Shown here: in pieces, positions 2,409-15,391 of the stretch
How positions within the stretch are numbered: the stretch's first letter is position 1
How the letters are laid out: every line of letters begins with the position of its first letter
IMG/VR virus record: IMGVR_UViG_3300025860_000107
Span: 1-21,240 of that record
Length of the DNA stretch: 21,240 nucleotides
Direction: 5' to 3' (one strand)
From: a virus
Program-made: the position numbers and the translations under genes
Notes under the pieces: model-generated
Databases searched by the model: none
Told to the model about the DNA's origin: nothing
The model's input: the letters and a program-made list of their open reading frames with translations, nothing else

Positions 2409-3662
2409 TTAATATCCTGAAATTGTGTCTAAGTACTCGTACTCTTCCTCTTCAAAATCTAAAACATAAGCTACTTTTGCAAGTTGCTCAATGTAAGATA
2501 ATGCATCGGGTAAGTCATCATGTACTAGTTTGTTTGGAAACTGGAATAGTTGGTCTAGGAACTCGTTGTTCCAATCACCCTTGTTAAGCTTAACGTAACC
2601 ATTCTCAAAGCGCCCTTGCAGCGCCCATACGACACGATCTGTCTTCTTCTTATTACCGTGTGTAAGCTCATCAACCCTAAAGAAGGTTTGACTTCTCTTC
2701 ATAATGTCGTTCATGTAGGGCATAACCGCCTGTCTAGCGATACCCTTCTCAATCCCAACTGCTATAGGTTCGTACTTCTTAACAGCATCAAATATCTTCT
2801 TAGCTGTTTCTTTAACATCCCACCTACCGTAGATAATCTCTGCTACCCACCAACCATTTTCGTTGGCTTTCACTATAGCCATAGCAGTAGAGTCAAGGCG
2901 AGTGTTTTTAACACCCTTACTTCCATCTTCCTCAAAACCCGCTAAGTCAACCGCTATGTAGAAGTCACCCTCTTTAGGCTCTTCCTCATCAAACTTTATC
3001 CACTCTTCTTTGAATAACTCTCCACCTGCCGCCTCGAAAGATGCCATAAACTCCTGCCGGAATGCAAATGAGGACATGCTTTTCTTAGCTGCCTCGATTT
3101 CCTTTGCGTCAAGTAATGGGTTATCAAACGAAGTGAAGTGGAAAGACTTAAATGTCTCATCTTCACCCTTTAGTCCATATTGATATAAATCGTAGAAGTG
3201 GTTTCTACCCATAGGCGTACCAATGAACATGGCACGACCCTTCAAGTCAGCTAAAGCAGGTCGAAGGATTTGCTCCCACACCATCGGCTTCATATCTGCA
3301 TACTCGTCAAGGACTAAGAATTTTAACGAAACACCCCGCATCGTTTCAGGGCGGTCAGCACCTTTGAGACTAATAGTTGCCCCATTGATAAGCTTAATCT
3401 GCAAGTTGTTAATGTGGCTACCTGTAATGACAGCATGACCCACCTCAAGCAGGACTTGCCACATGATGTCACGAGCTTGACCTTGTGTAGGAGCAACATA
3501 GAATACATGACCTTTTTCGCTTTGTAGCGCTTCAACTATTAATCGGTAAGCAGCTAACCTACTCTTACCAGTACGCCGACCAGCCGCTACCACATGGAAA
3601 CGAGTCTCGTCAGCCCATACCGTCTTTTGCCACGGTAACAGCTCAATCTTTAAATCACTCAA
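2409..3662 (-). CDS. terL: Terminase large subunit (packaging ATPase and nuclease)
   Basis: This 417-residue motor protein pumps DNA into the prohead and cuts concatemers. An N-terminal ATPase is clear: Walker A AAGRRTGKS at residues 26-34, Walker B FLVLDE at 115-120, and the coupling motif GTP at 148-150. The C-terminal RNase H-like nuclease shows the expected acidic residues in AVDLAG (D239), GIEKG (E305) and HDDLPDA (D382-D386), the last being a typical large-terminase signature. The length is normal for short large terminases. The start overlaps the endolysin stop by 8 bp, and the portal gene follows after 1 bp. Confidence 0.96.
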   Translation of the reverse strand: MSDLKIELLPWQKTVWADETRFHVVAAGRRTGKSRLAAYRLIVEALQSEKGHVFYVAPTQGQARDIMWQVLLEVGHAVITGSHINNLQIKLINGATISLKGADRPETMRGVSLKFLVLDEYADMKPMVWEQILRPALADLKGRAMFIGTPMGRNHFYDLYQYGLKGEDETFKSFHFTSFDNPLLDAKEIEAAKKSMSSFAFRQEFMASFEAAGGELFKEEWIKFDEEEPKEGDFYIAVDLAGFEEDGSKGVKNTRLDSTAMAIVKANENGWWVAEIIYGRWDVKETAKKIFDAVKKYEPIAVGIEKGIARQAVMPYMNDIMKRSQTFFRVDELTHGNKKKTDRVVWALQGRFENGYVKLNKGDWNNEFLDQLFQFPNKLVHDDLPDALSYIEQLAKVAYVLDFEEEEYEYLDTISGY

Positions 3663-4113: not shown

Positions 4114-4523
4114 TATTTTTTCCTTAAATCTATAATCTTCTCTAACGTTCGACCACCAAAGTAGAAGGACATGATTAACATACCCCACTGCCCTAGTAGC
4201 TCAACGTAAGCGCTATTGGTGTTCATATCGAAAGCACTCATAATAGCAAACACAAAATAGCCTATAAGGATGGCTATTAGTGTCATGGGTCGTATGTTTT
4301 TAGATAACCAACTGTCGCTGGTCATATCAGAGTTTAACCTAGCTGTGAGGTTGTTTTGCTCTGTTTCGTATAGCTTCGTCTCGTTAGCTAACTTTGTTAA
4401 CTCACCCTCTTGGGCTAACCGAGCTAACTCTATTTGCGCCTTCGCCTTAGCCTCTGGGTCGGGGATAAGTTTGTCAATTAACTTACCACCTATATTAAGT
4501 AATGAATCAAGTACCACTGACAT
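4113..4523 (-). CDS. Holin, 3TM (GTA-type) family
   Basis: This 136-residue membrane protein would make the holes that release the endolysin. It begins with an amphipathic helix (VLDSLLNIGGKLIDKLIPDP), continues with a charged alanine-rich helix, then has the family-typical SDSWLSKNIRPMTL, followed by two hydrophobic segments near residues 79-97 and 107-123 and a basic C-terminal tail. This matches the 'holin of 3TMs, for gene-transfer release' pattern. The endolysin gene follows with a TAATG overlap, and the gene itself overlaps the TerS gene by 17 bp. No spanin (Rz/Rz1) gene is visible alongside. Confidence 0.85.
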   Translation of the reverse strand: MSVVLDSLLNIGGKLIDKLIPDPEAKAKAQIELARLAQEGELTKLANETKLYETEQNNLTARLNSDMTSDSWLSKNIRPMTLIAILIGYFVFAIMSAFDMNTNSAYVELLGQWGMLIMSFYFGGRTLEKIIDLRKK

Positions 4524-4875
4524 CCTCCACGTCTATATAATTGTCCTCGTCAATCGTGACTGACTCACCAACACCACTGATGGTGATGTTAACAGATGGC
4601 CTACTGTTTGATGAGGTGGCCTTATCGAAATATGACATGGGTAACATACGGTCAACCAAAAGCTTCCACGCCGCTGCTTGATTCTTGTGGTCATCGTCAA
4701 GTGCAGCGTCTAAGATGGAGTCTAACACCTTGCGGGATTTAGGTGACGCCATCAACCGAGCTTTAAATTCCTCGATGGCTGAGGCATCCCCTTTAGGTCT
4801 ACCAACTGGTCTTTTCTTAACTTCGGCTAACCTATCTTTCGATGGTCTACCCTTTTTCTTTGTTGGATTATCCAT
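4507..4875 (-). CDS. terS: Probable terminase small subunit with AT-hook-like N terminus
   Basis: This 122-residue protein is the first gene of the leftward late operon. Its role is inferred mostly from position (TerS, holin, endolysin, TerL is a T7-like order) and from its basic, DNA-binding look. Two AT-hook-like GRP motifs occur (KKGRPSK at residues 7-13 and RPVGRPKGD at 22-30), followed by a helical middle with the stretch QAAAWKLLVDRMLPMS and an acidic C-terminal tail that could contact TerL. It would select phage DNA for packaging. No classical helix-turn-helix is obvious. It could instead be another DNA-binding factor, but the context favours TerS. Confidence 0.7.
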   Translation of the reverse strand: MDNPTKKKGRPSKDRLAEVKKRPVGRPKGDASAIEEFKARLMASPKSRKVLDSILDAALDDDHKNQAAAWKLLVDRMLPMSYFDKATSSNSRPSVNITISGVGESVTIDEDNYIDVEDVSGT

Positions 4876-4891
4876 TGCTGGTTCCCCTATG

Positions 4892-4934
4892 TAGCACTAA
4901 CTAGGCTATATAGACTACATACTTTCTAGTGCTA
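4892..4934. repeat. Inverted repeat in the late leader
   Basis: TAGCACTA at 4892-4899 is the exact reverse complement of TAGTGCTA at 4927-4934. The shorter CTAACTAG (4897-4904) and CTAGTTAG (4932-4939) are also complementary. Each arm is followed by a CTATATAG palindrome. The structure falls in the untranslated leader between the late promoter (5016-5044) and the TerS start, so it could act in RNA as a hairpin or in DNA as a paired operator. Confidence 0.55.
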
Positions 4935-5015
4935 GTTAGTCTATATAGCTATGAACTATGAGGTAGTGGTTAACCATATTTAGTAACCAGAAACATCATA
5001 CCCTATATAGTACAT

Positions 5016-5044
5016 AGTATAACACACTTTTGCTATTTTGTCAA
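5016..5044 (-). promoter_or_regulatory. Leftward late promoter for the terS-holin-lysin-terL-portal operon
   Basis: On the minus strand there is a perfect TTGACA (5039-5044), a 17-bp spacer and TATACT (5016-5021), with a TGTGT extended -10 context. The spacer contains the same AAAAGTGTG as the promoter at 394-422. Transcription should begin near 5009, leaving a leader of about 130 nt that carries palindromes and an inverted repeat before the TerS start. Confidence 0.82.
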
Positions 5045-5091
5045 GTCTTTTCTTCACTTTTTTACAATTAATTTAGGTCAAAAATACTGTT

Positions 5092-5124
5092 CAGTCGAAA
5101 TAGTCACCTTAGCGACTTCGACTG
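5092..5124. repeat. Inverted repeat CAGTCGAA / TTCGACTG
   Basis: The arms at 5092-5099 and 5117-5124 are perfect 8-bp complements separated by 17 bp. A pyrimidine-rich stretch follows on the plus strand (TTTCCTTTTCTTG). It might be a weak terminator protecting the origin region or a protein-binding site. It is too loosely looped for a confident terminator call. Confidence 0.45.
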
Positions 5125-5208
5125 TTAGCTTTCCTTTTCTTGTTAACTCTCTCCTGTTAGCTGTTTAGTCAAAAGTGCTTAAAAATTAAGCAGTTATGCT
5201 TGTTAGCT
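5123..5208 (+). repeat. Three direct repeats TGTTAGCT
   Basis: TGTTAGCT occurs at 5123-5130, 5155-5162 and 5201-5208, all in the same orientation. The last copy runs directly into a CTATATAG palindrome. The repeats lie in the AT-rich stretch just upstream of the DnaA boxes and look like short iterons, but three copies of an 8-mer is a modest signal. Confidence 0.45.
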
Positions 5209-5278
5209 ATATAGACTATCTGTCTCTAATTAACCCTTATTTGTTCTTAAAATACCCTATTTTGTATCTGAGGTGGTA

Positions 5279-5327
5279 CTACAAATATACAACGCAGACC
5301 AAGCCCTCCCCGGGGGTGTTGTTGTAG
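5279..5327. repeat. Interrupted inverted repeat around a GC-only palindrome
   Basis: CTACAA (5279-5284) is complementary to TTGTAG (5322-5327). CAAC and GTTG pair next inside them, and the centre of the segment holds CCCCGGGG (5308-5315), a GC-only palindrome in an otherwise AT-rich region. It lies about 27 bp before the first DnaA box. A cruciform or structural boundary for an origin is possible, but the function is unknown. Confidence 0.35.
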
Positions 5328-5353
5328 CTACGCAACAGTAATTGGGGACAGAG

Positions 5354-5416
5354 TTATCCACAGGTTATCCACAACTGTATAGACATACAGGTAAAGTTAT
5401 CCACAGGTTATCCACA
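5354..5416 (+). other. Cluster of four DnaA boxes (putative replication origin)
   Basis: The exact 9-mer TTATCCACA, the E. coli-type high-affinity DnaA box, occurs at 5354-5362, 5365-5373, 5397-5405 and 5408-5416, all in the same orientation. They form two pairs with an 11-bp start-to-start step inside each pair and 43 bp between pairs, close to whole helical turns. An AT-rich stretch with short repeats lies on the left (about 5160-5275) and the rightward promoter lies on the right. This is the arrangement of a DnaA-dependent origin or a DnaA-regulated control region. Whether it works as an origin cannot be decided from sequence alone. Confidence 0.75.
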
Positions 5417-5540
5417 GGCTATATAGTCATGTGTGAGGGTCTATGCTGGTGGCTATACAGTTAGACAGACAGACCAGACAACCTATAGCAAAAGACTATC
5501 AAGATAAGCAGCCGATTAAAACATACAATCAACAAAAGTA

Positions 5541-5568
5541 TTGACAGCGTAGAAAACTACGTTATCAT
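5541..5568 (+). promoter_or_regulatory. Rightward early promoter with operator-like inverted repeat
   Basis: TTGACA (5541-5546), a 16-bp spacer and TATCAT (5563-5568) form a good sigma-70 promoter about 30 bp before the first rightward gene. The spacer holds the perfect inverted repeat CGTAG-AAAA-CTACG (5548-5561), placed where a bound protein would block RNA polymerase. No other strong promoter is visible before the small-gene block. Confidence 0.7.
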
Positions 5569-5603
5569 TGATACATCAACAACCAAACCTAAAGGGGTTA
5601 ACA

Positions 5604-5732: not shown

Positions 5733-6380
5733 ATGATACGCATTAGCAAGACAAGTAAACTAGATGGCATCCTCTCCTGGTCACTGCAGGCCATCGAGAC
5801 GTGCCCAGGGTCGCTAGGCAAAGACGGCGCATTAGTCCCGGCTTGTTCGGGTTGTTATGCCACCACTGGTAACTATAACTTTCCCAACGTCAAAGCCCCA
5901 CGGCTAGAGAATAAACAAGACTGGCAACGTGACGCATGGGTTGCCGATATGGTTAAACAGTTAGACAGTAGCCGTTATTTCCGTTGGTTTGACAGTGGTG
6001 ATATGTACGCCATCGGGTTAGCCGATAAGATGTTAGAAATTATGGAAGCAACGCCGTGGGTTAAGCACTGGCTACCAACCCGCATGGCTAAGTTTCCTAA
6101 GTTTGCTAAAGTTATAGCTAAGATGCAAGCGTTGCCTAATGTGATGGTTAGGTTTTCAAGCGATAGCGTATCGGGTGAATTTGATGCCCGTCATGGTTCC
6201 GTTATCATTGATAACCCCGAAGCATTGCCCAGTGGTGCTACCTTGTGTGAAGCATACGCTAACGACGGTAAGTGTAACGGGTGTCGCTCATGTTACAACA
6301 AAGACGTGCCAGTTATTGCATATCCGGCGCATGGGCGTAAGATGGCTAAGGTTATCCGTATTTTGTCCAACAAGGTTTAA
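5733..6380 (+). CDS. GP88-family protein (cysteine-rich, possible Fe-S or radical enzyme)
   Basis: This 215-residue protein resembles the 'gene product 88' family first named in mycobacteriophages. Family-like features are an opening of the form ISKTSKLDGILSWSL, the cysteine motif C24 ... C38-x2-C41-Y, an FRWFDSGDMYA core (residues 83-93), WLPTRM near 113-118 and LPNVMVRFSSD near 134-144. A second cysteine cluster, C172, C181-x2-C184-x2-C187, suggests metal or Fe-S binding. The biochemical activity of the family is not known to me, and a radical-SAM-like role is only a guess from the cysteine pattern. It is the only large gene in the early small-gene block, and its start is preceded by the stop-AAGGGGTTAAC-ATG linker. 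Confidence 0.85.
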   Translation: MIRISKTSKLDGILSWSLQAIETCPGSLGKDGALVPACSGCYATTGNYNFPNVKAPRLENKQDWQRDAWVADMVKQLDSSRYFRWFDSGDMYAIGLADKMLEIMEATPWVKHWLPTRMAKFPKFAKVIAKMQALPNVMVRFSSDSVSGEFDARHGSVIIDNPEALPSGATLCEAYANDGKCNGCRSCYNKDVPVIAYPAHGRKMAKVIRILSNKV

Positions 6381-8265: not shown

Positions 8266-8434
8266 TAACGAAGAAGCTACGTTGTACTACACTGTTAATG
8301 ACGCTATTGATGTTATCAATGCAATAGGTTTAGAATTATTTTTAGAATCTCTCTTCAAAGAGTCAAAAAAGCGTTCGTTAACCATTGATGAGATGGAGGC
8401 TATGAGAACGTTACATGACAGTTGGGAGTTATAA
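8258..8434 (+). CDS. 58-residue helical protein, unknown
   Basis: The frame opens ATGATG. The second ATG is preferred because AAAGGA then stands at a more normal distance. The protein is mostly helical (VNDAIDVINAIGLELFLESLFKE), with a basic patch KKRS and an acidic end. It is translationally coupled to the primase-helicase through TAATG at 8432-8436, so it may be a replication accessory factor, but that is positional inference only. Confidence 0.6.
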   Translation: MNNNEEATLYYTVNDAIDVINAIGLELFLESLFKESKKRSLTIDEMEAMRTLHDSWEL

Positions 8435-10035
8435 TGGCTAACTACAAAAAGATGCATATACCCTGCGACCATTGCGGAAGTAGTGATGCAGCAGTTATCA
8501 ACGAAGATGACTCGAAATATTGCTTTAAGTGCAATGTGCGAGACAAGCCACAGAATGGATTTAATATGGTTACCCTACCACAGGTATCAACCACACCCCA
8601 AAAGCCTCACCTGAGCCGTTCTGATGCGTTTCAGAGCGGTATTAGTGACCGACGGTTGGCGCTAAAGACAGTCGAGGCTTATGGTGTTAAGTTAACAAAC
8701 GAAGGAGAGGTGTTATTTCCCTACTTTGACAAAACAGGTACGCAGGTTGCCAACAAGGTGCGGAGTAAGGATAAACAGTTTAAGGTTGAAGGTGAGTGGA
8801 AGACAGCCCTATTGTTTGGTCAAAACAACTTCTCTAAGGGTGGTGATGTTGTTACCATTTGCGAAGGTGAGTTTGATGCGTTAAGTGCCTACCAGATGAT
8901 GGGTGGTAAGCAAGCTGTTGTCAGTATCCGCTCAGGTGCTCAGTCAGCGCTTAGTGACTGTAAGGCATCCTACGAGTGGTTAGACTCATTCAGTAAGGTT
9001 GTTATCTGTTTCGACAATGATGAGGTTGGTCGTGAAGCTGCGAACAAAGTGGCTGACTTGTTTGGTGGTAAGGCGTTGTTATTCCAACATAGTCAACAAC
9101 ACAAAGACGCTAGTGACTGGTTGGTGCAACGTGCTGAGGTATTATTCTCTCAGGCGTGGTTAGCATCTGAGAAGTATAAGCCAGAGGGTATTGTCACCAT
9201 TACCGACATCAAGCAAAGGCTGTTAACCCCACCAGTGCCGGGTGTGCCGTGGTGTTTCTCTACGCTAACAGGGTTGACCTATGGGAGACGTAAGGGTGAG
9301 TTATATGCTTTTGGTGCGGGTGTGGGTGTTGGTAAAACTGACGTATTCACACAGCAGATAGCCTACGACATCGAGACGTTGAACAAGAAGGTGGGTGTTA
9401 TCTACCTAGAGCAAAACGTGGTCGAGACAGGGCAACGGGTGATGGGTAAGTTAGACCAACGGCTATACCATGTACCTGACGCTGACTGGAACCGTACACA
9501 GTATGAGGAGAGTGTTAACCGAATTGAGGAGCGTGATCAGCTATACATGATGGAGCACTTTGGGGCTATGGATTGGAAGACGATTAAGGGCATCATTAAG
9601 TACTTTAACAAGGCGTATGACATTGAGCATATCTACCTAGACCACCTGACAGCGTTATCGGCGCAGGAGCAGGATGAGCGTAGGGCACTTGATGGCATCA
9701 TGGCAGACATGGCATCGTTGGCGCAGGAGCTTGGCATCATCATCCACTTCATTAGTCACCTGACAACGCCAGAGGGTAAGTCTCACGAAGAAGGTGGACG
9801 TGTGATGGAGAAGCATTTCACAGGCTCACGGGCTATTGCACGTTGGTCGCACTACATGTTTGGGTTAGAGCGTAACAAGCAGCACACAGACCCGATTAAG
9901 CGACAGACAACGACGTTTAGGGTGTTGAAGGATCGGTTTACTGGTCGAGCAACAGGTATTAAATTTGGCTTGCAGTATAACCAAAACAATGGTATACTAC
10001 GTGAATCAGAGCTTTTAATGGATGATGTATTATGA
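8434..10035 (+). CDS. T7 gp4-like DNA primase-helicase
   Basis: This 533-residue replication protein unwinds DNA and makes primers. The N-terminal zinc-binding domain has C11-x2-C14 and C30-x2-C33. The TOPRIM primase core follows, with CEGEFDAL (E144) and CFDNDE (D193, D195). The C-terminal RecA-like hexameric helicase has Walker A GAGVGVGKT at 294-302, a Walker B-like segment IYLDHLTAL near 400-408 and the H4 motif HFISHL at 438-443. The length is close to T7 gp4 (566 residues). I chose ATG 8434, which overlaps the preceding stop and has GGGAG before it, rather than a TTG four codons upstream. Confidence 0.96.
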   Translation: MANYKKMHIPCDHCGSSDAAVINEDDSKYCFKCNVRDKPQNGFNMVTLPQVSTTPQKPHLSRSDAFQSGISDRRLALKTVEAYGVKLTNEGEVLFPYFDKTGTQVANKVRSKDKQFKVEGEWKTALLFGQNNFSKGGDVVTICEGEFDALSAYQMMGGKQAVVSIRSGAQSALSDCKASYEWLDSFSKVVICFDNDEVGREAANKVADLFGGKALLFQHSQQHKDASDWLVQRAEVLFSQAWLASEKYKPEGIVTITDIKQRLLTPPVPGVPWCFSTLTGLTYGRRKGELYAFGAGVGVGKTDVFTQQIAYDIETLNKKVGVIYLEQNVVETGQRVMGKLDQRLYHVPDADWNRTQYEESVNRIEERDQLYMMEHFGAMDWKTIKGIIKYFNKAYDIEHIYLDHLTALSAQEQDERRALDGIMADMASLAQELGIIIHFISHLTTPEGKSHEEGGRVMEKHFTGSRAIARWSHYMFGLERNKQHTDPIKRQTTTFRVLKDRFTGRATGIKFGLQYNQNNGILRESELLMDDVL

Positions 10036-10975: not shown

Positions 10976-11349
10976 TTAACACATCTTTTGTTAAGTTGAA
11001 TGAGCTAATCTCGGAAGGTGATTGGGAGTATTTTGAAGATCGTGAGATGTCAATGCGTGAAGCCGCAGGAAGGATTAAGTTTATGAAGGATGTAACAGAG
11101 ACGCTAGAGCAGCGTGAGGGACGTTATGGTGAGTACAAGGATGTGTCAGCCACATCACAGTGGTTAAAAGATATCATGCATGCGGGGGATAGTTGGAATG
11201 CGATGGAACCCTATATGCAGGAGAGCTTGGACTTGATTGCTAACAAGCTGGCACGTATTGTTAACGGTGACCCCTTCTATGATGACAGTTGGCACGATGT
11301 AGGGGGTTATGCAAAGTTAGTTGAAATTGAACTTGCTAAGGGGAAGTAA
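10972..11349 (+). CDS. DUF6378-like phage protein, TTG start
   Basis: This 125-residue protein has the DUF6378-type core REGRYGEYKDVSATSQWLK followed by LDLIANKLARIVNGDP and DSWHDVGGYAKL, a domain often found in phages near nucleotide metabolism genes. Activity is unknown to me. TTG 10972 overlaps the MazG-like TGA stop and has AAGGGG 5 nt upstream. The gene ends at TAATG shared with the HNH gene. Confidence 0.72.
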   Translation: MINTSFVKLNELISEGDWEYFEDREMSMREAAGRIKFMKDVTETLEQREGRYGEYKDVSATSQWLKDIMHAGDSWNAMEPYMQESLDLIANKLARIVNGDPFYDDSWHDVGGYAKLVEIELAKGK

Positions 11350-11804
11350 TGCAACAACTTATTGAAGATACCCTAACTTACGATCCAGACACTGGTTTGT
11401 TTAAGTGGTTAGACAACTCTCGAAAACACGCTAAAGGATGGTTTAAAGGCACTCTTTGCAATGGATACTTGAGGATTCAGATTGGAAAAAAAGCATATTT
11501 AACACACAGACTTGCTTGGTATTTAATGCATGGTAAGTTTCCAAAAGATTTTATTGACCATAAGAATGGTATCCCAACAGACAATAGGCTATTAAATTTA
11601 CGAGAAGCAACTCCACACCAAAACAGTCAAAATTGTAAAGGTCGTGGTACTTCTTTTAATAAAAAAGGTAAAAAATGGGAAGCAAGGATTAGTGTAAACA
11701 AAAAAGATTTATTCTTAGGGTTTTTTGATACAGAAGAAGAAGCACGTCAAGCATATGTCAAAGGTAAGAAAAAATATCACCCATTTTGGATTGAGAAGGA
11801 GTAA
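11349..11804 (+). CDS. Free-standing HNH homing endonuclease with AP2 domain
   Basis: This 151-residue selfish nuclease has an HNH core at about residues 53-93 (HRLAWYLMHGKFP, then IDHKNG with D70 and H71, then DNRLLNLRE with N79) and a C-terminal AP2-like DNA-binding domain from about residue 101 (GTSFNKKGKKWEARIS ... LGFFDTEEEARQAY). The gene is visibly richer in A and T than its neighbours and uses many AAA and TTT codons, which suggests recent transfer. It sits between the DUF6378-like gene and the DNA polymerase without disrupting either frame. A likely target is the polymerase region of related phages. Confidence 0.9.
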   Translation: MQQLIEDTLTYDPDTGLFKWLDNSRKHAKGWFKGTLCNGYLRIQIGKKAYLTHRLAWYLMHGKFPKDFIDHKNGIPTDNRLLNLREATPHQNSQNCKGRGTSFNKKGKKWEARISVNKKDLFLGFFDTEEEARQAYVKGKKKYHPFWIEKE

Positions 11805-11806
11805 AC

Positions 11807-13498
11807 GTGGACTTAGTTCTCGACATCGAGACAGATAGCAAGCAGAGTAAGATATGGCTTTGCTATACCCATAACAGCGACACGAATGAATACATATGTC
11901 ACACAAAACCGGATACACTCATACCCTTAATAAACAAAGCAGAGAGATTGATCGGACACAACTTGATCGGCTTCGACGCACCAGTGCTCAACAAGCTGTG
12001 GGGAACGAAGATTGGATTGAAGAAAGTGAGAGATACCTTGATAATGTCAAGGCTACTCAATCCCTCTATCGAAAACGGTCACAGTTTGGCAGCATGGGGC
12101 AAGAGGCTAGGGAATCGTAAGGTTGAGTACACACGCATTTGGCATTGGATGAAAGGGTTACAATATGACAAGACTTCTACTACTCCTTATGACGATCCAG
12201 TTGATAACCTTAACCGCTTTTATTGTAGACAGGACGTGTCAGTAACTGTGGACTTGTACAAGTTGTTGTCTCAAGAGTTAAGAGGTTGGGGTGAAAGCGT
12301 ACAGCTAGAGCATGACGTAGCGGCTATTTTAAAGAGGCAAGAGCAGCATGGATTTAAATTTGATAAGCACAAAGGTGAGGTACTTCTTGCTCAACTTACA
12401 GGTGAAGTTGCTGATATTGAAAGCGAATTGCAAGATACGTTTCCACCAATTGTCGAAGAACGAGTTAGTGAGAAAACTGGTAGAACTCTCAAAACCAAGG
12501 TGACCCCATTCAATCCCGGCAGTAGGCAGCAGATTGCTGAGAGGCTGGCGACATTGGGTGTTACCTTTACAGAGGAAACAGAGAAGGGAAGCACCATCAT
12601 CAACGAGAAGGTGTTAGAGGGTATTGACCTACCAGAGGCTAAACTAATTGCTCGGTATCTAATGCTACAGAAACGCATCTCGCAGGTGAGTAGCTGGTTT
12701 GACGTTGTTAAGGAGGATGGTAGGGTACACGGTAGGGTGATAACAAATGGAGCCGTGACGGGGCGTATGACGCATATTAGCCCTAACATGGCGCAAGTGC
12801 CTAACAGTGGTAGTGAGTACGGTGTCGAGTGTCGTGAGTTGTGGACAGTTGAACCCGGTAACAAGTTGGTAGGTATCGACGCAAGCGGGTTGGAGTTACG
12901 TATGTTAGCCCACTATATGAAGGATGCTCGATATACAGACGAAATCCTCAATGGTGACATACATACGGCTAACCAAAAGGCGGCAGGGTTGCTCAATCGG
13001 AATACAGCAAAGACATTTATATATGCTTTCTTATATGGTGCTGGAGCTGCAAAGATTGGAGCAATTGTAGGTAGTGATGAGAAGGAAGGCAGGAAACTGA
13101 TGAGGCGCTTCCTACGAAACACTCCTGCACTAGGTGAGTTGAAGGATAAGGTATCTCGTTTGTATGAAAGAGACGGGTTCTTACCGGGTTTAGATGGCAG
13201 ACATTTGTTAGTGCGTAGCGAACATAGTGCACTGAATACTTTGTTACAAGGAGCAGGGGCAATTTTAATGAAAAAATCCCTAGTTATCTTGAACAACAAG
13301 TTAAAGTGTGGTATAATAGACGCTAAGTTCTGTGCAAATGTGCACGACGAGTGGCAGGTAGAAGTCTCGGAAGAAGACGCAGAGCAAGTAGGTAAGATGG
13401 CAGTAGCGGCTATCGAAGAGGCGGGTGTGGCACTGGGGCTAAGGTGTCCAACAACAGGAGAATATAATGTAGGTAATAACTGGAAGGAAACACATTGA
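11807..13498 (+). CDS. T7-type family A DNA polymerase
   Basis: This 563-residue replicative polymerase has a proofreading exonuclease domain: Exo I LDIETD (D6, E8), Exo II GHNLIGFD (D57) and Exo III YCRQD (D143). The polymerase domain shows motif A GIDASGLELR (D358), motif B R398-x3-K402-x3-Y406 in RNTAKTFIYAFLYG, and motif C VHDEW (D514). It is shorter than T7 gp5 (704 residues), largely because the thumb insertion that binds thioredoxin is replaced by about 20 residues between DTFPP (210-214) and FNPGSR (235-240). It starts at GTG 11807 with AAGGAG upstream. A promoter-like sequence lies within its 3' end at 13289-13317. Confidence 0.97.
   Translation: MDLVLDIETDSKQSKIWLCYTHNSDTNEYICHTKPDTLIPLINKAERLIGHNLIGFDAPVLNKLWGTKIGLKKVRDTLIMSRLLNPSIENGHSLAAWGKRLGNRKVEYTRIWHWMKGLQYDKTSTTPYDDPVDNLNRFYCRQDVSVTVDLYKLLSQELRGWGESVQLEHDVAAILKRQEQHGFKFDKHKGEVLLAQLTGEVADIESELQDTFPPIVEERVSEKTGRTLKTKVTPFNPGSRQQIAERLATLGVTFTEETEKGSTIINEKVLEGIDLPEAKLIARYLMLQKRISQVSSWFDVVKEDGRVHGRVITNGAVTGRMTHISPNMAQVPNSGSEYGVECRELWTVEPGNKLVGIDASGLELRMLAHYMKDARYTDEILNGDIHTANQKAAGLLNRNTAKTFIYAFLYGAGAAKIGAIVGSDEKEGRKLMRRFLRNTPALGELKDKVSRLYERDGFLPGLDGRHLLVRSEHSALNTLLQGAGAILMKKSLVILNNKLKCGIIDAKFCANVHDEWQVEVSEEDAEQVGKMAVAAIEEAGVALGLRCPTTGEYNVGNNWKETH
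13289..13317 (+). promoter_or_regulatory. Promoter-like sequence inside the polymerase gene
   Basis: TTGAAC, a 17-bp spacer and a perfect TATAAT, with a TGTGG extended -10, lie in the last part of the polymerase gene. The spacer ends in AAAGTGTGG, as in the leftward promoter at 394-422. The start site would be near 13324, ahead of the 13495 gene and the SSB gene, so it could raise SSB output. Being inside coding DNA, it could be partly coincidental. Confidence 0.5.
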
Positions 13499-14792: not shown

Positions 14793-15030
14793 ATTAGCAG
14801 GGTGTACATGGGAGGTAGTAGAAACCGAGATGCCTGACCTAGGCTCTACAAACCCCGATGAGTGCAGAATTTTAATTAACAAGAAGTTAACAAAACAAGA
14901 TAAAGACGTTACCTTTTACCATGAGCTTGTTCATGCGATTATGTTTACAATGGGTGAACGTGACCAAGACGAGCGCTTTGTAGAAGGGTTTGCTCAGTTG
15001 TTGTACCAGTATGAACAACAGAAAGTATAA
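14779..15030 (+). CDS. Mini metalloprotease-like protein (HExxH), GTG start
   Basis: I placed the start at GTG 14779, which overlaps the exonuclease end and has GGGAG 6 nt upstream; a longer upstream frame is unlikely because it reads through the exonuclease. The 83-residue product has FYHELVHAI with the zinc motif H48-E49-x2-H52 and a downstream E65/E69 in ERFVEGFAQLL that could be the third ligand. It resembles the catalytic core of ImmA/IrrE- or SprT-type metallopeptidases without other domains. A host regulator or phage repressor could be the substrate, but that is speculation. Confidence 0.75.
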   Translation: MKKFKLAGCTWEVVETEMPDLGSTNPDECRILINKKLTKQDKDVTFYHELVHAIMFTMGERDQDERFVEGFAQLLYQYEQQKV

Positions 15031-15391
15031 CGACGGAGAATGGACTGAGGCAAGGTTTAGGGCATTTATAATATCTGCGCTACGAGCTTATATGAAGCGA
15101 TTCCCGCCTAAGTGGAAGGCTCTTAAAGACGCAGCGGTAGGTAGGTTAATTAACAAACGAAGTGGTAGGTTAGCAGAACATTATTTGTGTGCTGATTGTG
15201 GAGACTTCTTTATTGCAAGAGATGTACAAGTGGATCACATTGAACCCGTTGTATCTCCGAAGGAAGGGTTTCAAGATTGGTGGACATATATGAATAGGTT
15301 GTACTGTGAAGCGGATAACCTACAAGTGCTGTGTAAACCTTGTCACAAACAAAAGACAGCGGAAGAACGTAAAGAGAGGAAGAAGAAATGA
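15011..15391 (+). CDS. HNH endonuclease
   Basis: This 126-residue nuclease has two zinc-binding pairs, CADCGDFF and CKPCHKQKT, flanking the HNH core VQVDHIEPV and NLQVLC, an arrangement common in phage HNH and endonuclease VII-like proteins. The N terminus is basic and helical. It stands in the recombination/replication block, not as an inserted selfish gene, since it is compact and overlaps both neighbours. It may resolve branched DNA or degrade host DNA. The ATG at 15011, inside the preceding gene, is the most likely start, though its ribosome site is weak. Confidence 0.88.
   Translation: MNNRKYNDGEWTEARFRAFIISALRAYMKRFPPKWKALKDAAVGRLINKRSGRLAEHYLCADCGDFFIARDVQVDHIEPVVSPKEGFQDWWTYMNRLYCEADNLQVLCKPCHKQKTAEERKERKKK

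Follow-up and report, generated by a model that had tools for sequence, protein, structure and literature searches.

A DnaA-box array predicted to lie in the terminal repeat of a family of uncultured LUZ24-like podophages

Among described phages, LUZ24 (Bruynoghevirus) comes closest to the locus analysed here. Its early and late operons diverge from a large intergenic spacer, which contains two opposed promoters and is also the site of a 184-bp direct terminal repeat; for phage tf, a terminal repeat of 186 bp is reported (PMC3517423). Sites for host proteins at phage ends are likewise known. In alphaproteobacterial phages capable of ‘lytic deferment’, sites for host CtrA are concentrated in the terminal repeats and intergenic gaps of otherwise lytic phages, and those in terminal repeats can be functional, i.e. 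regulate phage promoters (PMC9437464). In T5, DnaA boxes are among the features listed for the injection stop signal (PMC13250531).

Here we describe an array of DnaA boxes in the window, i.e. a whole stretch of 21,240 nucleotides of viral DNA (IMG/VR record IMGVR_UViG_3300025860_000107), which as a 21-kb fragment represents less than a whole genome. These four boxes, without additional ones, are also present in a 37,271-bp sister contig from this phage (G001, locus L009). To our knowledge, lytic phages with a replisome of their own are generally thought to need no DnaA. The window shares with LUZ24 the divergent operons and the opposed promoter pair, but the LUZ24 termini analysed contain no perfect DnaA box, and the sequences of its edge elements are unlike those of the window's family. 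With bacterial oriC regions, the array shares head-to-tail boxes, an 11-bp spacing and adjoining AT-rich DNA as well as, in some family members, a parS site near the candidate origin. In contrast to oriC, however, it is far smaller, is a candidate origin only and is missing from more than half of the relatives in which its conserved borders can be recognized.

The box array and its divergent spacer

The window contains four exact copies of the DnaA box TTATCCACA, all on the + strand (5354..5362, 5365..5373, 5397..5405 and 5408..5416), and no further copy anywhere in its 21,240 bases. From start to start, boxes 1 and 2 as well as boxes 3 and 4 are 11 bp apart, with 32 bp between boxes 2 and 3, which corresponds to approximately one, three and one helical turns. 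In dinucleotide shuffles of the window, the box appeared 0.19 times on average and at most twice. Exact matching and shuffles thus bear out what the earlier note had claimed for this DNA, i.e. four boxes in one orientation that form two helically spaced pairs. For perfect head-to-tail boxes, binding of host DnaA is the ordinary expectation, and an 11-bp head-to-tail arrangement fits the geometry of the DnaA oligomer array at E. coli oriC. A phage-encoded DnaA was rejected as the binding partner, because no phage-encoded DnaA domain was found.

The array sits in a spacer (4876-5600) between a leftward operon with genes for a probable small terminase subunit, holin, M15 peptidase, large terminase subunit and portal, and a rightward operon with genes for a GP88-family protein, primase-helicase, DNA polymerase A, exonuclease, ThyX, ribonucleotide reductase and PhoH. 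The first leftward gene (4507..4875, − strand; 122 amino acids) has a product with no Pfam match and is a probable small terminase gene by synteny with LUZ24 gp68 only. The large terminase subunit (TerL; 2409..3662, − strand) matches Terminase_6N/6C, and the GP88-family early gene (5733..6380, + strand; PF17338) was used to locate relatives. Two sigma70-type promoters point away from each other across the spacer. The leftward one, TTGACA-17-TATACT (5016..5044, − strand), belongs to the terminase/structural operon and is surrounded by DNA with 86% identity to an annotated LUZ24-type promoter; the rightward or early one, TTGACA-16-TATCAT (5541..5568, + strand), lies about 125 bp to the right of the array and is conserved in a close relative (L087). 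To the left of the array, the AT fraction is 0.58-0.73 over 4876-5307; with this AT-rich stretch on one side and the early promoter on the other, the placement proposed earlier for the boxes is correct. The spacer also contains five copies of the palindrome CTATATAG (at 4906, 4941, 5003, 5207 and 5419), with one other copy in the window (8223); this palindrome is a possible site for another regulator.

The phage has its own replication genes. The T7-type primase-helicase attributed to it before (8422..10035, + strand) was found to have Toprim and DnaB_C domains, with a match to the T7 N-terminal part that stays below the cut-off, and a family A DNA polymerase is encoded at 11807..13498 (+ strand). 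A T7-type single-subunit RNA polymerase is absent from G001 and from a 36,338-bp relative, G031; the positive controls phiEap-1 and ZK1 were matched. Two HNH-type endonuclease genes (11349-11804 and 14990-15391), the first of which has an AP2-like domain under the curated cut-off, adjoin the DNA polymerase and exonuclease genes, and both are probable homing endonuclease genes. The designation of the phage as lytic is supported, though short of proof, by the finding that none of 14 records (the 37-kb G001 and 13 relatives) contains a tyrosine integrase (PF00589), with control genomes positive; the same result led us to reject a prophage or temperate reading. A search of bacterial genomes yielded nothing but phage contigs that had been sorted into MAGs unrelated to one another (Verrucomicrobiales, Sphingobacteriales, Flavobacteriales), and therefore no host is assigned.

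Conservation of the array between two border elements

Relatives of the window concentrate perfect boxes at one position. In 80 loci that encode a homologous large terminase, such boxes are nearly absent outside a region 1.0-2.4 kb upstream of TerL, and all 34 boxes in the peak at 1.0-1.4 kb upstream have the same orientation. This region has a layout common to the relatives, which begins with a left element (a T-run and GTATCTGGGCGGGTAC), continues about 20 bases on with the C-rich tract CCCCTCCCCCGCCCC and then with variable DNA, and ends with a right element, GTGTGAGTCTATGCGGGTG(G)CTATACAG. Both elements occur in 29 distinct loci, and the bracket that they enclose measures 112-234 bp (median 183). 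Inside these brackets, there are 45 perfect boxes in 5.4 kb (8.3 per kb), all in a single orientation; outside, there are 5 in 208 kb (0.024 per kb). Absence of the boxes from relatives had been named in the earlier note as an observation that would speak against its proposal; what we find is conservation of a patchy kind, with at least two boxes in 13 of the 29 bracketed relatives and no perfect box in the other 16.

Arrays comprise as many as 11 boxes, boxes are most often 11 bp apart (68 of 196), and one subfamily has them in mixed orientation. A pattern scan of IMG/VR for box triplets, which was begun independently of the window's family, arrived at this family in 50 of 120 cases among the matches listed. 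The relative L087 has a TerL that is 99% identical to that of the window and near-identical flanks. Its array is rearranged between the same elements, yet three perfect boxes are retained, which is expected if selection favours boxes rather than one fixed sequence. Altogether, these comparisons strongly support real DnaA boxes that are maintained by selection, and the array in the window is almost certainly a selected platform, predicted from its sequence to bind host DnaA.

Brackets devoid of boxes may have repeats of their own. In relatives that lack boxes, the bracket frequently contains repeats of the palindrome GTCTTATATAAGAC (L091:153-254, L094:3185-3242, L089, L102, L180 and L184), which suggests that arrays of differing binding sites are exchangeable in the terminal repeat. 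Inverted repeats of the type GGTGACC-N(about 16)-GGTCACG, one or two per bracket, occur in other box-less relatives (L141, L145, L166 and L241). In addition, box arrays at a distance of a few hundred bases from the terminase gene are present in a separate group of phage contigs with TerL proteins only 23-29% identical (L272, L274, L301, L315, L317, L338, L339, L343, L346, L352 and L363).

Predicted placement in the terminal repeat

In the window, the left conserved element, GTATCTGAGGTGGTAC (5264..5279, + strand), is a predicted terminase cut site and the left edge of a putative repeat; within this element, GTAT and GGTAC are nearly invariant in 36 distinct relatives. It is followed by the C-rich tract with a short hairpin, GCCCTCCCCGGGGGT (5303..5317, + strand), with the tract itself present in nearly all relatives, and, beyond the boxes, by the right conserved element GTGTGAGGGTCTATGCTGGTGGC (5431..5453, + strand), which occurs in most relatives and is the predicted cut site at the right edge. 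The direct terminal repeat predicted from these borders comprises about 176 bp (5278..5453, with edges uncertain by a few bases) and has the whole array inside.

This prediction rests on relatives whose contigs end at these elements. G031 has an exact 221-bp direct repeat at both contig ends, with seven boxes inside; the ends of this repeat fall within the left and right conserved elements, and the contig itself ends within the equivalent of the left element. Two further contigs (L092 and L099) both end at one identical base of the right element. Among 40 distinct contigs with the left element, 8 end at most 200 bp further on, compared with about 2 expected at a constant rate by a hand estimate, and in contigs with box triplets generally, the array is at most 100 bp from a contig end in 9 of 56, with 1.7 expected. 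The position of the predicted repeat, between the diverging early and terminase operons, is also that of LUZ24/T7-type ends, including the 184-bp repeat of LUZ24. The end repeat of G031, together with the ends of L092 and L099, therefore makes it very probable that the array of the window lies inside a direct terminal repeat at approximately 5278-5453; for the window we infer this by homology, since its contig and G001 both continue through the region, and neither has an exact end repeat. Nine other long contigs show no terminal overlap, and no match to the left element was found in named phages. A circular overlap in G032 was rejected as proof of a terminal repeat, because its 127 bp are a common assembler word length.

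Outside of the family, four T7-like phages have all of their perfect boxes within the exact repeats at the two genome ends, with one orientation throughout, i.e. phiEap-1 (five boxes in a 195-bp repeat), VB_Ship_A7 (four in 177 bp), ZK1 (six in 292 bp) and Kp7 (five in 238 bp). These phages carry their arrays independently of the window's family. The T7-like Autographiviridae differ in terminase and genome, their box spacings are mostly about 21-22 bp, and phiEap-1 and ZK1 encode an RNA polymerase, unlike G001 and G031. The literature available without subscription gave no account of such arrays in the terminal repeats of T7-like or LUZ24-like phages. The T5-like phage Spc35 has three perfect boxes in one orientation in its left terminal repeat, which is annotated as entering the cell first; T5-like phages are an unrelated family, however, with a repeat of about 10 kb rather than the approximately 0.2 kb of the window's family and with a two-step entry, whereas no two-step entry is known for the window's family. 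Taken by itself, the anatomy, i.e. a selected DnaA array inside a terminal repeat, has a high probability of being correct. Its predicted placement in the terminal repeat, its recurrence in unrelated T7-like phages and the host parS in some relatives were all missing from the earlier account.

Candidate roles of host proteins at the phage ends

What could host DnaA do at this position? The earlier note put forward three roles, i.e. assistance in the start of replication, titration of DnaA and control of the early promoter, and each of them is a candidate here. The reading that we tentatively favour, with somewhat less than even confidence, is that an array for host DnaA in the terminal repeat of a LUZ24-like podophage aids the start of replication at the terminal junction. 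As part of the predicted terminal repeat, the array is expected at each end of the linear DNA in virions, as well as at the junction after joining or in concatemers. Host DnaA would bind the head-to-tail, helically phased boxes in the repeat of about 176 bp and would help to open the adjoining AT-rich DNA, after which the phage primase-helicase and family A polymerase would begin replication at the terminal junction. A phage without its own RNA polymerase for T7-style origins would thereby gain a start. The presence of the primase-helicase and polymerase, the lack of a T7-type RNA polymerase in G001 and G031 and the AT-rich DNA flanking the bracket (AT fraction 0.69 directly to the left of the left element and 0.68-0.72 beyond, with a family mean of 0.56) are all consistent with this proposal. 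The 16 box-less brackets, by contrast, belong to relatives that evidently manage without boxes, which weighs against an essential origin, and since T7-like phages with their own RNA polymerase have repeat arrays, too, the shared function may not be initiation. Moreover, the AT-rich stretch of the window is on the side opposite to that at R1 of E. coli oriC, no DnaA-trio was seen on inspection by eye, and the AT-rich flank may just reflect the promoter region.

In some relatives, the resemblance to a host origin extends to parS (TGTTNCACGTGNAACA). A general scan for parS was unspecific (one of 119 loci in the window's family), and hence only the combination of parS with a box within 30 bp was used. 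Such a pair is present in 22 viral contigs, of which 13 encode a homologue of the window's TerL or TerS and 2 others a primase-helicase homologue; by a hand estimate for up to 5 × 10^10 bases, fewer than one pair would arise by chance. L219 has five boxes and a perfect palindromic parS (2485-2500) between the left and right elements; in L122 and L126, parS is located just past the right element, with one box ahead of the left element, and L015 has parS in the equivalent spacer. The window itself has no parS. Perfect parS sites in or beside DnaA-box arrays were also seen in contigs without a visible ParB gene (L219, L374, L375, L378, L382, L383, L389 and L394). Searching 17 family records, of which several are fragments, for a ParB_N domain (PF02195) gave no match, with control genomes positive, and therefore the reader of parS is likely to be host ParB; for the same reason, we rejected a phage-plasmid with its own partition system, despite parS in some members. 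It is conceivable, albeit doubtful, that the terminal repeat of this widespread, uncultured podophage family is a compact imitation of a host origin, with boxes and in some members an embedded parS, that would recruit host DnaA and ParB to the ends.

The main rival to initiation is a structural, non-replicative role, in which DnaA on the terminal repeats would anchor the first-entering DNA, control entry or bridge the ends for protection or joining. Such a role accounts for the shared position better than initiation does, although as an explanation in its own right we regard it as rather unlikely. It would fit the confinement of the array to the terminal repeat in the window's family, the position of all boxes inside the exact end repeats of the four T7-like phages and the addition of parS in some family members, as ParB, which binds parS, also bridges DNA. 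The boxes in the first-entering repeat of Spc35 and the DnaA boxes listed for the injection stop signal of T5 (PMC13250531) point in the same direction. However, the terminal repeat may simply be the chief non-coding space, in which any site can evolve.

Alternatively, the high-affinity boxes of multiplying phage genomes could soak up host DnaA and so halt host initiation. Exclusive use of perfect consensus boxes, arrays of up to 11 and their doubling through the terminal repeat would suit such titration, and the same logic would apply to ParB in parS-bearing members; but four boxes per repeat remain few until late infection, and neither the terminal-repeat position nor a single orientation would be needed, which makes titration improbable.

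Still less probable is a role in gene regulation, with DnaA at the array repressing or activating the early promoter, such that infection would read the DnaA level of the host, i.e. its cell-cycle or growth state. The array is indeed upstream of this promoter, and CtrA sites that regulate phage promoters from terminal repeats set a precedent (PMC9437464). Yet the boxes stop about 125 bp before the −35 element, too distant for simple occlusion, and in the CtrA study, in which DnaA sites were checked in the phage set, these had no positional asymmetry (PMC9437464); the CtrA system also differs in the protein involved, and the window's family can pair parS with boxes. Finally, that the boxes are chance occurrences or unrelated repeats merely resembling DnaA boxes is extremely improbable, with 4 present where 0.19 are expected, an approximately 340-fold enrichment in the bracket, an orientation of 45:0 across relatives, arrays that are rearranged yet retained between near-identical phages and no supporting point on the other side; shuffles and enrichment in the relatives' bracket rule out a chance origin.

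If the imitation of a host origin is real, host replication and segregation proteins would join in the handling of phage ends or in short-term episomal persistence, with no need for a phage partition gene. More broadly, a conserved, orientation-fixed array in terminal repeats, which recurs independently in T7-like and T5-like phages and is sometimes combined with parS, would mean that chromosome proteins of the host are used generally at the ends of phage DNA, an idea directly testable in laboratory phages, e.g. relatives of phiEap-1. Overall, our data suggest that viruses use the chromosome-handling proteins of their hosts on the ends of their own DNA.
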